NCBI GenBank assembly: GCA_003216575.1
Contig: QCIR01000001.1
Location: forward strand, 124,001 to 188,000
Direction: 5' to 3'
Length of the DNA: 64,000 bases
DNA from: Prochlorococcus sp. AG-402-M23
GTDB lineage: Bacteria; Cyanobacteriota; Cyanobacteriia; PCC-6307; Cyanobiaceae
Shown here one piece after another: positions 58,877 through 64,000 of this stretch. The position numbers and the translations under genes were made by a program. Every line of letters begins with the position of its first letter. Position 1 is the first letter of the stretch. The notes beneath the pieces are model-generated. The model was given only the letters and a program-made list of their open reading frames with translations, made no database searches and had not been told where the DNA came from.

Positions 58877-59254
58877 TTAATTGAACCTACCAAGGATTGG
58901 GTTAACAGCAAATTCAATAATAAAATAAGTAATTAAAAGCCAAGATAAAATAAAAAAGATAACCAAACTAGGACCTTTTAAAAAAGGTTGAAAATAATTG
59001 ATACCACCATCTCCCTCTAGAAAAGAACGGCATTCCTTAACCTGAGAATTAGCAAGTCGATAATAATCTGAACAAGGCAACCTATTGTCAACATAGATTT
59101 TTCTTAGATTATTAATGAGTGGGTCTGGCTTATCAGTTATTAAAAAGGCAACTAGTTCTCCTGGCCTTAAATCAATTCGAGTTCGCTCAAGGTTGCTAGT
59201 AACGCCTATATTAAATAAATCGCCATTTTGAATTAAATAAACATAAGAAGCCAT
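58877..59254 (-). CDS. GIY-YIG-like (T5orf172-type) domain with C-terminal membrane helix
   Basis: 125 aa. Residues 1-75 look like a GIY-YIG/T5orf172 module: SYVYLIQNGDLFNIGVTSNLE, then VAFLITDKPDPLINNLRKIYVDNRLPCSDYYRL. In this group the classical GIY...YIG appears as VYL...NIG. The catalytic Arg and Glu of true GIY-YIG nucleases are not obvious. A strong helix (about 95-113, LVIFFILSWLLITYFIIEF) follows, so the domain is tethered to a membrane. Role unknown; a DNA nuclease is not assured. Confidence 0.65.
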   Translation of the reverse strand: MASYVYLIQNGDLFNIGVTSNLERTRIDLRPGELVAFLITDKPDPLINNLRKIYVDNRLPCSDYYRLANSQVKECRSFLEGDGGINYFQPFLKGPSLVIFFILSWLLITYFIIEFAVNPILGRFN

Positions 59255-59379: not shown

Positions 59380-60393
59380 TTAGAAATCATATTTATTAGT
59401 ATAAAGATTAATAATACTACGATCATGATTAATTTCAATCGTTGTATCTGAATTTATGCTTAATAAACTTTCTTGAGGAATAGAGGCCTGAATCATCCGA
59501 ACAAAATCTTTTAATCTATTGTCTTTTAAACCTGCACCTTTTAATTTAATCATTTCTTCCTCCTGTTGTCTTTTCCATAAAACTGTATTATTAAACTGAG
59601 GTGATTTTAAATGCCAAATTTTCTCAAACATTTTCCATATTTGGCTATATTCTATAAGAGATTCCTGAATCAAAATGCGATACTGCTCTTCAGCTGGACT
59701 AAGTGATAAATTATATTTTTGTTCAGATGTATATTCTAAATCCATATGATTTGAAATCGGCTCACAACCAACAAACCAGCCTTCCAAAATTAAAACTTTA
59801 GTCCGAAATTCACACCATCCAGATCTATCTCCTTTCCCATCTCTTAGAGACTTATCAAAAATTGGACATTTTAAATAACCGGTATTTAAAAACGTATCTA
59901 ATGATTTATTCAATAAATCTATAGAGTGACTTCCTGGAAATCCTCTTGAAACATTCCATGGATTGCCATCCAAAGCAATATCCATTTGTTTGCCAGGCAA
60001 ATAAAAATCATCCAAAGATATAACTTTAATGTCTAAGCATAGCTCTCTAGCTACATTATTAATCCAAGAACCGAGAGTAGATTTACCGGACCCTGGAAGT
60101 CCCGAGAATCCAATTATAATAGGATAGTTCATGCTCTCAATATATTTTTCTAAAAGAGAAAAAAAAGGAAATGATAATGACCATTTCCAATCTAATTTAG
60201 TATTTGGCTTCCAATATTTTTCAACAATAGTTTTCCTATTAAGATCAGACCATGTGTTAAAAAAAAGTAGTGGGTTTAACGATAAGTCTTCAAGGAAAGA
60301 CAGATAAATGTCAAAAGAAAAGTCAAATTCATCCTTTATATCCTTTAGGAAAATACTATTAAGTTCATCATCATTAATAGTATTTTTAATCAT
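59380..60393 (-). CDS. glyK: D-glycerate 3-kinase
   Basis: Plant/cyanobacterial-type glycerate kinase of the P-loop kinase superfamily (related to uridine kinase and PRK), making 3-phosphoglycerate from D-glycerate and ATP; it also closes photorespiration. 337 aa. The Walker A loop is IIGFSGLPGSGKSTLGSW (about 95-112), followed by VISLDDFYLPGKQM, GNPWNVSRGFPGSHSIDLL and the Walker-B-like ILEGWFVGCEPI. Its start overlaps the upstream phosphatase gene stop by 4 bases. In this cluster it could also salvage glycerate released from glucosylglycerate. Confidence 0.92.
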   Translation of the reverse strand: MIKNTINDDELNSIFLKDIKDEFDFSFDIYLSFLEDLSLNPLLFFNTWSDLNRKTIVEKYWKPNTKLDWKWSLSFPFFSLLEKYIESMNYPIIIGFSGLPGSGKSTLGSWINNVARELCLDIKVISLDDFYLPGKQMDIALDGNPWNVSRGFPGSHSIDLLNKSLDTFLNTGYLKCPIFDKSLRDGKGDRSGWCEFRTKVLILEGWFVGCEPISNHMDLEYTSEQKYNLSLSPAEEQYRILIQESLIEYSQIWKMFEKIWHLKSPQFNNTVLWKRQQEEEMIKLKGAGLKDNRLKDFVRMIQASIPQESLLSINSDTTIEINHDRSIINLYTNKYDF

Positions 60394-61193
60394 TGTAAAT
60401 TATTTATATTACTAAGAATATCTTCAATACTATTTGACCATCCTTTTGCATGAGGTGCATTCGCCAATCTAAAGCGACCTTTATCTATTCCATTTTGTAA
60501 ATACCTATTAGCTCCATTTTTACCAGGAATAACAATAGAGATGTCAGCATATTCAAGTAGAGGAAGATCATTTTGTGAATCCCCAAGAGCTATTATCTTT
60601 ACATCCTTATTATTTAAATACACCTTTAACTTATTAACTGCTTCGCCCTTATGACTTTTATTTGAAAGGAGATGACTCATACGATTTCCCTTAAAGACAT
60701 GAACATTATATAGTTTACAAATAACCTTAACTTCTTCAAAGATATGATCAGGAGGATTTAAGAAAGGTACACTCCATTGCCTTTTTAAAGCTCGTTTAAT
60801 TCCATGGTTAGACAAACCTGTAAGTTCAAATATTTGATTATGATTTAAATCATTTAAAGGAGTCAAATTATAATTAATTCGTTCAGAAATTTTATTAAGG
60901 ATAAATCTCAAATCCTCATAACTTTTTCCTAATATCAATTCCCATTCTGAAGAATTATCATCATTAAAACCATAAATAGCTGCACCATTTTCTACAATAA
61001 AAGGATCTAATAAACCATTCTCATTACGAAAAAATCTAACCTCTGAAGCTGTTTTGCTTGTACAAGGTATTACTGGAATAGCCAACTCAGACAACAACTT
61101 CAAGGTGTCTCGAGCAGGAGTAATATCATAATTCTCATCCATTAATGTCCCGTCAAGATCGGTTACTATCCAGAATTTAGAATTATTTTGCAT
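60390..61193 (-). CDS. gpgP: Glucosyl-3-phosphoglycerate phosphatase (MpgP-like HAD)
   Basis: HAD-IIB phosphatase of the mannosyl/glucosyl-3-phosphoglycerate phosphatase group, releasing glucosylglycerate from its phosphate. 267 aa. The HAD motif I is VTDLDGTLMDENYDITPA with nucleophile Asp, followed by PVIPCTSKTASEVRFFR and FIVENGAAIYG (typical of this group), and the C-terminal motif IIALGDSQNDLPLLEYADISIVIP. Sugar specificity is assigned from context: gpgS is divergent and a GH13_18 phosphorylase is upstream, 4 bases away. Confidence 0.88.
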   Translation of the reverse strand: MQNNSKFWIVTDLDGTLMDENYDITPARDTLKLLSELAIPVIPCTSKTASEVRFFRNENGLLDPFIVENGAAIYGFNDDNSSEWELILGKSYEDLRFILNKISERINYNLTPLNDLNHNQIFELTGLSNHGIKRALKRQWSVPFLNPPDHIFEEVKVICKLYNVHVFKGNRMSHLLSNKSHKGEAVNKLKVYLNNKDVKIIALGDSQNDLPLLEYADISIVIPGKNGANRYLQNGIDKGRFRLANAPHAKGWSNSIEDILSNINNLQ

Positions 61194-61197
61194 AAAA

Positions 61198-63000
61198 CTA
61201 TTCAGCTAATGAAACCCACATTACTTGATAAGGATTAAGTTTAAATGTATCACTCCTTAAATAAGAACCTGTAATATTATCTAATAATTTAATTTCAGAA
61301 CTTAGTTTTAATAAACCTAGTATATTTGAACCCGGAAAAATTAAATGTTTGTCAGACATATTACAAATAACCAATACTTTGTCCTTTCCTAAGCCTCTTT
61401 GAATAATTACACAATTAGGAATCTCAGTAGAAATACATTTCATAAAAGATTCTGGATGGAAAGCCTTTAGCCTTGACCTGATTTTAATAATATGGCTGAG
61501 ATAAGATATGTTTTTACTTGCTGGGGAATCAAAATTTTTAAGTCGCTCAATTAATTTAGTAGCTTCGAACTTCTCTCGATTTAAATCTCTTCTTTGCCCC
61601 GTTTTCCTAAAAGTTTCAAGGTCATTAGGAGAAGCCAATATAGATGGGAGATAAAAAGCTGGAACACCTTTTAAAGATAATGTGAAAACTTGACTTAACA
61701 AAAAACGTTCAAATTGAAATAATGTAATGTCAGATCCTCCATTTGACATAGCGCTCCACCAACTAATATTTAATTCATAAGGTTGATCTTGTCCATTTGA
61801 AAGGCGCCTATGACTAACTAATCCTCCACGTTTTTCTGATTCAACCAAGAGATTATGAATTCTTTTTTCTTCCATAATTCCTTCCAATGCTCTTAATCCA
61901 ATTCCATCATGTGAAGAAGTGAAATTAAGAAGAGAAGTAGAAGTTGGCAAATCTTTCCAACTAGATAACCACGTTTTTAATAAATCTGTATTACCCGTAT
62001 AAATTGCCTCTAATAGTAAAGGAGGTAGCGTAAAATTATATGCAAGGTTTGCTTCATTCCCATCAATTAAATAAGAAAGATTTTCTTTCTCTGGGACATT
62101 GGTTTCAGTAATTAAGACAGCAGAAGGTTTGATAATCTTCAAACATTTATTTAAAAGCTTTACAATCGAATGTACTGGTTCTAAATGTAAACAAGTAGTA
62201 GATGGCTCCTTCCAAATAAAAGCAATAGCATCCAGACGAATCCATTCAGCACCATAATTGATATATCTAACTAATAATCTTAAGAATTCCAAGAAGAGAT
62301 ATGGATTTCGCCAATCAACATCAATTTGATCTGGTCCGAATGTTGTCCAGACGCTTTTATAACCATCATTTGTTTTTATATTTGTGAAAAGAGAAGAATT
62401 TCTAGGCCTTATAACTTCTTCCCAAATATCAGTTTTAGATGATGTGACAATATACGATGATCCTGGTTCGTCTGATTTCATAAATTGATGAACCCATGGG
62501 TGAGAGGATGAGACATGATTTAAAACAAGATCAGCCATTATTTTGTGGTTACTTGATAAATTCTTTAAATCATTCCAATTCCCAAATGAGTCCTCTATCT
62601 TTTCATGATTAGAAACTGCAAATCCACCATCACTTGTGGAAGGCAAAAAAGGCAAAATATGTATTATTGAAGAAAGGCCACTCAATCTATTTTTTACGAA
62701 TTCAGCTAATGTTTTTAACGTTGATTCATCTTCCCTATAAATTGCATCTGGATAAGTAATCAAAACAACACTTGAAGAATCCCAAATCGATTCAATCTCA
62801 TCTTCATGAATAACATGATATGGATCTAGAATCTGCAACAATTGAGACCACACTGAATTGATTTTCTCTTCAGAGTGATCGTGATAAATTTTTCTGAGAG
62901 AAATTCTCAGTTCTTCTAATTCACTATCCAACTGAGGCACTCTTAAAAGGGAAACAATCTTCTCTTCATCATCGTAGCTTCCACCTTGAATCTGTAGCAC
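61198..63000 (-). CDS. GH13_18 phosphorylase, probably glucosylglycerate phosphorylase
   Basis: 600-aa member of glycoside hydrolase family 13 subfamily 18, whose members (sucrose, glucosylglycerol and glucosylglycerate phosphorylases) split a glucoside with phosphate to give glucose 1-phosphate. The nucleophile Asp is in GAEWIRLDAIAFIWKE, the acid/base Glu in VLITETNVPE, and the transition-state Asp in FTSSHDGIGLRAL. Often annotated sucrose phosphorylase; its placement with gpgS, gpgP and glyK argues for glucosylglycerate. The start codon is GTG at 63000, only 11 bases from the opposing gpgS ATG. Confidence 0.85.
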   Translation of the reverse strand: MLQIQGGSYDDEEKIVSLLRVPQLDSELEELRISLRKIYHDHSEEKINSVWSQLLQILDPYHVIHEDEIESIWDSSSVVLITYPDAIYREDESTLKTLAEFVKNRLSGLSSIIHILPFLPSTSDGGFAVSNHEKIEDSFGNWNDLKNLSSNHKIMADLVLNHVSSSHPWVHQFMKSDEPGSSYIVTSSKTDIWEEVIRPRNSSLFTNIKTNDGYKSVWTTFGPDQIDVDWRNPYLFLEFLRLLVRYINYGAEWIRLDAIAFIWKEPSTTCLHLEPVHSIVKLLNKCLKIIKPSAVLITETNVPEKENLSYLIDGNEANLAYNFTLPPLLLEAIYTGNTDLLKTWLSSWKDLPTSTSLLNFTSSHDGIGLRALEGIMEEKRIHNLLVESEKRGGLVSHRRLSNGQDQPYELNISWWSAMSNGGSDITLFQFERFLLSQVFTLSLKGVPAFYLPSILASPNDLETFRKTGQRRDLNREKFEATKLIERLKNFDSPASKNISYLSHIIKIRSRLKAFHPESFMKCISTEIPNCVIIQRGLGKDKVLVICNMSDKHLIFPGSNILGLLKLSSEIKLLDNITGSYLRSDTFKLNPYQVMWVSLAE

Positions 63001-63011
63001 TTTATTTTTGA

Positions 63012-64000
63012 ATGGACTTTCAGCAAGGTTTAATCACAACTATTCATGAGTATGGATTAGCAAAAGATCCAGTATCTCAATTAAACAAAGACCTATTAAA
63101 GCGACCAACATCAATACTAATTCCTTGCCTGTTTGATGAATTCAGTAGACCAGCTCTAAAACTTATAAGACAAACATTAAAAGAGTTAAAAAATTTAAAT
63201 CAACTAGTTATAGCCTTATCAGCCAGTAATCATGATGAAGTACTAAAAGCAAGGCATTTCTTTAAAGAAATGCCCTTCCCCGTTCACGTGCAATGGACTA
63301 ATAGCCCAAAGGTAATTGAATTACTAAAGGATCAGGAAAAGAACGGCTTAGATTTATTAGGAGTCCCAGGGAAAGGATGGGCCGTATGGCAAGGAGTTGG
63401 TGTAGCAACAAAAAGCTCTGAAGTGGTAGCACTTTTTGATGCTGACATAAGAACATTTAACTCTAATTATCCAGCAAGAATGTTGGGTCCACTACTTGAG
63501 AAATCAAATGGTATTTCATATGTAAAAGCATTTTATAGTCGCCTATCATTAGAGACAAATGCGCTTCAAGGGCGAGCCACCAGATTATTTGTAGGACCTT
63601 TGTTATCTAGCTTAGAACAATTAATTGGTAATGTTCCCTTCCTACAATATTTACAGTCTTTTAGATATCCATTGGCTGGAGAATTTGCTTTTACGACTGA
63701 TTTAGCAATGAACTTAAGAATCCCTTGCGATTGGGGATTGGAAATAGGACTACTCTCAGAAGTTTATAAAAATGTAAGGATATCAAGAATCGCACAAGTA
63801 GATTTAGGTATCTTCGACCATAAACATAAAGAAATAGGCTCAAAAGCTAATGAAGGTTTGCAAAAAATGTCTACTGAAATTTTATCAAGTGTTTTAAGAG
63901 GCTTAATGGAACATGAAGCAAGAACACTTACTAGTTCTGAATTAGCGAACTTGGAGGTTTTATATCGAAGAGCAGGGGAAGATAGAGTTAAACAATTTAG
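63012..64000 (+). CDS. gpgS: Glucosyl-3-phosphoglycerate synthase (3' end cut by window)
   Basis: GT81 retaining glycosyltransferase joining NDP-glucose and 3-phosphoglycerate. The frame opens at ATG 63012 (MDFQQGLITTIHEYGLAKDP) and is open to the edge, about 329 codons. Family landmarks are PTSILIPCLFDEFSRPALKL, GKGWAVWQGVGVATKSSEVVALFDADIRTF with the DxD metal site, and LQYLQSFRYPLAGEFAF followed by WGLEIGLLSEVYKN. No ribosome-binding site precedes the ATG. It is the divergent partner of the phosphorylase-gpgP-glyK operon. Missing from the ORF track because it is open-ended. Confidence 0.93.
   Translation, partial: MDFQQGLITTIHEYGLAKDPVSQLNKDLLKRPTSILIPCLFDEFSRPALKLIRQTLKELKNLNQLVIALSASNHDEVLKARHFFKEMPFPVHVQWTNSPKVIELLKDQEKNGLDLLGVPGKGWAVWQGVGVATKSSEVVALFDADIRTFNSNYPARMLGPLLEKSNGISYVKAFYSRLSLETNALQGRATRLFVGPLLSSLEQLIGNVPFLQYLQSFRYPLAGEFAFTTDLAMNLRIPCDWGLEIGLLSEVYKNVRISRIAQVDLGIFDHKHKEIGSKANEGLQKMSTEILSSVLRGLMEHEARTLTSSELANLEVLYRRAGEDRVKQF

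Follow-up and report, generated by a model that had tools for sequence, protein, structure and literature searches.

The 64,000-nucleotide stretch of Prochlorococcus sp. AG-402-M23 DNA analyzed here (the window), taken from a genome of 1.68 Mb in 69 contigs, ends in four contiguous genes. Three lie on the minus strand: a predicted class III (plant/yeast-type, GLYK) D-glycerate 3-kinase of 337 aa with the P-loop GLPGSGKST (59380 to 60393); gpgP, for a predicted glucosyl-3-phosphoglycerate phosphatase of the HAD-IIB, MPGP family (60390 to 61193, 267 aa); and the gene for a GH13_18 enzyme, a putative glucosylglycerate phosphorylase (GGaP; 61198 to 62940, 580 aa from a conserved GTG at 62940). The fourth, gpgS, for a predicted glucosyl-3-phosphoglycerate synthase, begins at 63012 on the plus strand and is cut by the window end at 64000; the complete gene in the genome runs to window position 64199 and encodes 395 aa. 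Kinase and gpgP overlap by 4 bases and a gap of 4 bases separates the phosphorylase from gpgP, which is the spacing that the first-pass annotation had described for an operon within a contiguous set of four. A 125-aa open reading frame (ORF) at 58877 to 59254, between the kinase and uppP, keeps its position in close relatives and had no match in a Pfam search.

Reading frames, curated profiles and the phosphorylase start

Profile and structure matches for gpgP, gpgS and the kinase agree with these names to differing degrees. The gpgP product scores 417 bits against NF001217, a mannosyl-3-phosphoglycerate phosphatase model with a cut-off of 373, and 290 bits against TIGR01486 (MPGP subfamily; cut-off 165), with PDB matches 1xvi and 3ztw. 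The gpgS product aligns to positions 1 to 394 of the 402 in NF040724 (GpgS_Meth) with 394 bits, a score below the curated cut-off of 700 that we count against the main reading; its PDB matches are the mycobacterial GpgS structures 7p5l, 4y6n and 4ddz. The kinase matches 1odf (yeast), 7xpc and 6ckg (D-glycerate 3-kinase) with E values from 5e-16 to 4e-14. It is the sole copy found in the genome, where two further families of glycerate kinase, PF02595 and PF05161, gave no match.

The longest ORF for the phosphorylase spans 61198 to 63000 on the minus strand and would encode 600 aa, starting from a GTG at 63000. Of 21 close relatives, 18 have GTT as this first codon, and in most of the 21 a stop interrupts the frame at codon 19 (upstream regions L034-L068). 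The GTG at codon 21 (62940), on the other hand, is unchanged in each of the 22 sequences, that of the window among them, that could be aligned at this point. From stop codons and codon identities only, the start is placed near 62940, not 63000, and the longest-ORF start is judged to be misleading. The first 20 codons of that ORF (62941 to 63000) are untranslated in most close relatives. A start at 62940 therefore leaves about 71 bases between gpgS and the phosphorylase (62941 to 63011). This intergenic stretch is similar in DNA sequence among close relatives and is probably a divergent regulatory region that holds both promoters; a promoter scan gave counts close to those of shuffled sequence (35 versus 32.6), and no site in this stretch stood out.

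Probable substrate and mechanism of the GH13_18 enzyme

A 2020 review of GH13_18 gives two markers of glucosylglycerate phosphorylases, the motif (T/S)ETN and a Glu in loop A (PMC7178133), and we took the marker definitions from it. At beta-strand 5, (T/S)ETN is present in all 110 picocyanobacterial homologues (TETN in 109, SETN in 1), and the same 110 sequences have Glu in loop A in place of the Gln found in six of six references of the sucrose phosphorylase/glucosylglycerol phosphorylase (SP/GGoP) type. In the window enzyme (600-aa ORF numbering) the catalytic residues are D257, E299 and D365, which are invariant in the picocyanobacterial set, and TETN is accompanied by loop-A Glu409. Both markers also occur in Escherichia coli YcjM and in homologues from Meiothermus, Enterobacter and Pseudoalteromonas, and in none of the six SP/GGoP-type references. 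A maximum-likelihood tree separates a GGaP side of 39 rows, YcjM among them, from an SP/GGoP side of 6 rows with 100/100 support, the split sitting on long branches that the tree program flagged.

Because both published markers are present and the enzyme falls in a clade with the characterized YcjM, it is very probably a glucosylglycerate phosphorylase (EC 2.4.1.352). The characterized members of that activity, from M. silvanus and S. thermophila together with E. coli YcjM (Franceus 2017, tabulated in PMC8950772), share with the window enzyme membership in GH13_18, TETN, loop-A Glu and the catalytic triad. In the literature consulted we found no assay of a cyanobacterial GGaP member, and the M. 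taiwanensis homologue has only 35% identity to the window enzyme; both points are counted against the main reading. The comparison of acceptor-loop residues with characterized GH13_18 members, which the first-pass annotation had proposed, gives loop-A Glu and TETN, the GGaP type, and the enzyme names suggested there for all four genes are supported at the level of sequence.

Several other readings of this enzyme have to be weighed. The curated profile nearest to it is TIGR03852, for sucrose phosphorylase, and Prochlorococcus makes sucrose, as would suit a sucrose, sucrose 6'-phosphate or glucosylglycerol phosphorylase that feeds in carbon from another solute. The score of 180 bits, however, falls well short of the cut-off (334), as does that of the characterized YcjM at 221 bits. 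Loop A of the window enzyme, GQDQPYE, has Glu rather than Gln and departs both from the sucrose phosphorylase pattern N(L/V)D(I/L/V)YQ and from VGAIYQ of glucosylglycerol phosphorylase, and TETN stands where the SP/GGoP-type references have EIH or EVH. On these motifs and the separate clade, all three specificities were rejected as candidates, and we hold such a substrate to be extremely unlikely; specificity for sucrose or sucrose 6'-phosphate was what the first-pass annotation had regarded as incompatible with its proposal. Hydrolysis is a different matter, as recent picocyanobacterial comparative genomics calls the middle gene of the cluster gmgG (PMC7522525, PMC9361551), spelled out as a glucosyl(mannosyl)glycerate glucosidase in PMC9361551, an enzyme that would break the solute down to free glucose and glycerate. 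The available text of the two papers offers no supporting assay for the label, and the placement of the enzyme in GH13_18 with phosphorylases, its GGaP markers and the Arg and Tyr that match BaSP R135 and Y344, invariant in the picocyanobacterial set, make a hydrolase very improbable. If gmgG is the same gene, as the cluster order given in those texts suggests, the labels are probably wrong in mechanism, and "glucosidase" should on the sequence evidence read phosphorylase, an enzyme expected to conserve the bond energy. Lastly, the phosphorylase could be mainly synthetic, bypassing NDP-glucose by joining glucose 1-phosphate to glycerate from photorespiration to give glucosylglycerate. Its reaction can run either way, and the GGaPs already known have good affinity for D-glycerate, with KM values of 1-5 mM (PMC11009771). 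The kinase shares the operon and the substrate. Against synthesis, phosphate in cells usually exceeds both glycerate and glucose 1-phosphate. Expression has, moreover, been read as recycling by Coe et al. (PMC11631117), and we give the synthetic direction very little weight.

Conservation of the block and the position of the kinase

The family survey covered 91 genomes, 35 of which have the phosphorylase. In these, gpgP is adjacent to the phosphorylase without exception (35/35) and gpgS lies divergently beside it in 34, the remaining genome having gpgS on another contig. The order gpgS(-) GGaP(+) gpgP(+) kinase(+) is found at all named Prochlorococcus loci that extend far enough to show it, where uppP and msrA usually come after the kinase. 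Because the order is conserved across Prochlorococcus loci and family genomes, a chance arrangement is ruled out. The kinase behaves differently from the core trio: it adjoins the phosphorylase in 23 of the 35 genomes, falls at a contig edge in 1 and is unlinked in 11. Those unlinked genomes that are present in the tree are all on the other picocyanobacterial branch, and from genome size and divergence we infer that the 11 are Synechococcus-type. Thus the first-pass expectation of a four-gene block with a linked kinase in other picocyanobacteria stands for gpgS, the phosphorylase and gpgP, and for the kinase in the 23 genomes; in the 11 unlinked cases it fails, the joining of the kinase to the operon being lineage-specific.

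Whether the kinase belongs to glucosylglycerate metabolism at all can be asked from its distribution. It is present in 83 of the 91 genomes as against 35 with GGaP, and in three genomes (G026, G079 and G006; L120, L121 and L122) it is intact beside decayed remnants of gpgS and/or gpgP. Plants use glycerate kinases of class III in photorespiration; the class also occurs in cyanobacteria and yields 3-phosphoglycerate (PMC10970406). These observations, together with the 11 unlinked cases and the lack of a second glycerate kinase among those searched for, favor a purely photorespiratory enzyme that is a neighbor by accident, the glycerate from GGaP merely entering the photorespiratory pool. The tight same-strand overlap across Prochlorococcus, in contrast, suggests coexpression with the phosphorylase and gpgP. 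A further argument against incidental adjacency comes from the marine gammaproteobacterium Pseudoalteromonas donghaensis, a non-photosynthetic cell, where a plasmid (NZ_CP032091.1) encodes a kinase-GpgP fusion (L115:859-2601) followed by GpgS and GGaP. The fusion is annotated merely as a HAD-IIB family hydrolase. Its N-terminal class III kinase domain and the window kinase are 27% identical across 247 columns (pair E value 1e-20) and matches 6ckg, 1odf and 7xpc in the PDB. Here the four functions are contiguous as in the window, with the differences that kinase and GpgP are fused, that three genes carry the four functions and that all are on a single strand. Since P. donghaensis is without photorespiration, the association of its kinase is best read as the same glucosylglycerate loop, which by analogy supports a loop role in Prochlorococcus, and we consider a purely photorespiratory kinase unlikely.

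Joint use of the kinase, in the glucosylglycerate loop and in photorespiration, is compatible with the evidence on both sides. Because it is unlinked in 11 of 35 genomes and kept where other genes of the pathway have decayed, the kinase probably has a second use in photorespiration and is not reserved for the loop. The description of the block as a closed set, made in the first-pass annotation, thus holds to the extent that the four functions are contiguous in Prochlorococcus, and is too strong for a kinase that can lie elsewhere and outlives the decayed block. The phosphorylase, too, may have been lost in one case. In one genome (G085; L119:1497-5246, C8), gpgS, gpgP and the kinase are intact and the phosphorylase is a fragment of about 100 aa, possibly a natural loss of recycling. 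As this genome retains the synthesis genes with a GGaP remnant, some lineages may be able to do without recycling.

Proposed glucosylglycerate turnover in marine Prochlorococcus

Taken together, gene content, order, conservation, family membership and specificity markers, all read directly from the DNA, make us highly confident that the four genes enable marine Prochlorococcus to make the compatible solute 2-O-alpha-glucosylglycerate (GGA) and to recycle it by phosphorolysis. The enzyme activities, direction of flux, regulation and physiological role that follow are what we infer from them. GpgS would join NDP-glucose and 3-phosphoglycerate, and GpgP would remove the phosphate to give GGA. GGaP would then use phosphate to cleave GGA to glucose 1-phosphate and D-glycerate, so that the energy of the glycosidic bond is not lost, and the kinase would return D-glycerate to 3-phosphoglycerate. 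A phosphohexomutase-family gene is present and could carry glucose 1-phosphate onward. The likely role of such a loop would be to adjust the pool of osmolyte, or to reclaim it, in response to changes in salinity, light or nitrogen status.

The recycling loop is already known in the literature. Coe et al. (2024) reported that in strain NATL2A synthesis and recycling of GGA are colocated, with an adjacent putative transporter gene, and described recycling to glucose 1-phosphate and 3-phosphoglycerate (PMC11631117). In dark-tolerant NATL2A cells, synthesis transcripts were depleted and recycling transcripts enriched; the authors argue against increased use of GGA for storage and propose uptake of external GGA (PMC11631117). 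The NATL2A operon and the window thus have the same colocated synthesis and recycling, the evidence consisting of transcripts in the former, to which the window adds specificity markers and conservation of the block. Our additions are a firm assignment of the phosphorylase, a corrected start and the distinction between a core trio that is universal and a kinase that is lineage-specific. In NATL1A acclimated to low salinity, gpgS and gpgP transcripts were lower (PMC9606707), which is in keeping with an osmolyte role; the locus tags of that strain, NATL1_05721 for gpgP and NATL1_09131 for gpgS, place the two genes well away from each other, in contrast to the contiguous genes found here.

A GGA "reversible carbon store", as the first-pass annotation put it, is possible but unsupported, and goes beyond the sequence; a diel study proposed sucrose as a Prochlorococcus energy store (PMC8269247). 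A more speculative proposal, which we regard as improbable, is that linkage of the only kinase to the GGA operon ties glycerate from photorespiration to the osmolyte pool. GGaP could then work in both directions, GGA would buffer surplus glycerate and glucose 1-phosphate, and for lineages that have lost GGaP while retaining synthesis the solute would be a dead end.

Comparison with related clusters sets the window apart in some respects. The GGaP family often lies beside GGA genes (PMC7178133); the genes for YcjM and the M. taiwanensis homologue adjoin sugar ABC transporter genes, and not gpgS and gpgP as in the window. The gpgS-gmgG-gpgP cluster of marine Synechococcus, described from marine and brackish strains in the available text of PMC7522525 and PMC9361551, is the same trio as here, differing in that its middle gene is called a glucosidase and that in Synechococcus-type genomes the kinase lies elsewhere. 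The kinase itself is of the same family as plant-type GLYK and in Prochlorococcus has become joined to the GGA operon. Natural contrasts are thereby available in the genome without an intact phosphorylase, in the unlinked kinase of Synechococcus-type genomes and in the fused kinase-phosphatase of Pseudoalteromonas. No photosynthetic organism is more abundant than Prochlorococcus, and the turnover of its osmolytes bears on open-ocean carbon flow.

Just past the window end, convergent with gpgS, is a TauE/SafE transporter gene (L002:12211-12996), which is beside gpgS in the window's own genus and elsewhere in most of the family. As a part of the GGA system it was rejected, since only 8 of the 35 genomes with the phosphorylase carry it within 3 kb of that gene, and it is present in many genomes that have no GGA genes. 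It is possibly the transporter gene mentioned by Coe et al. (PMC11631117).
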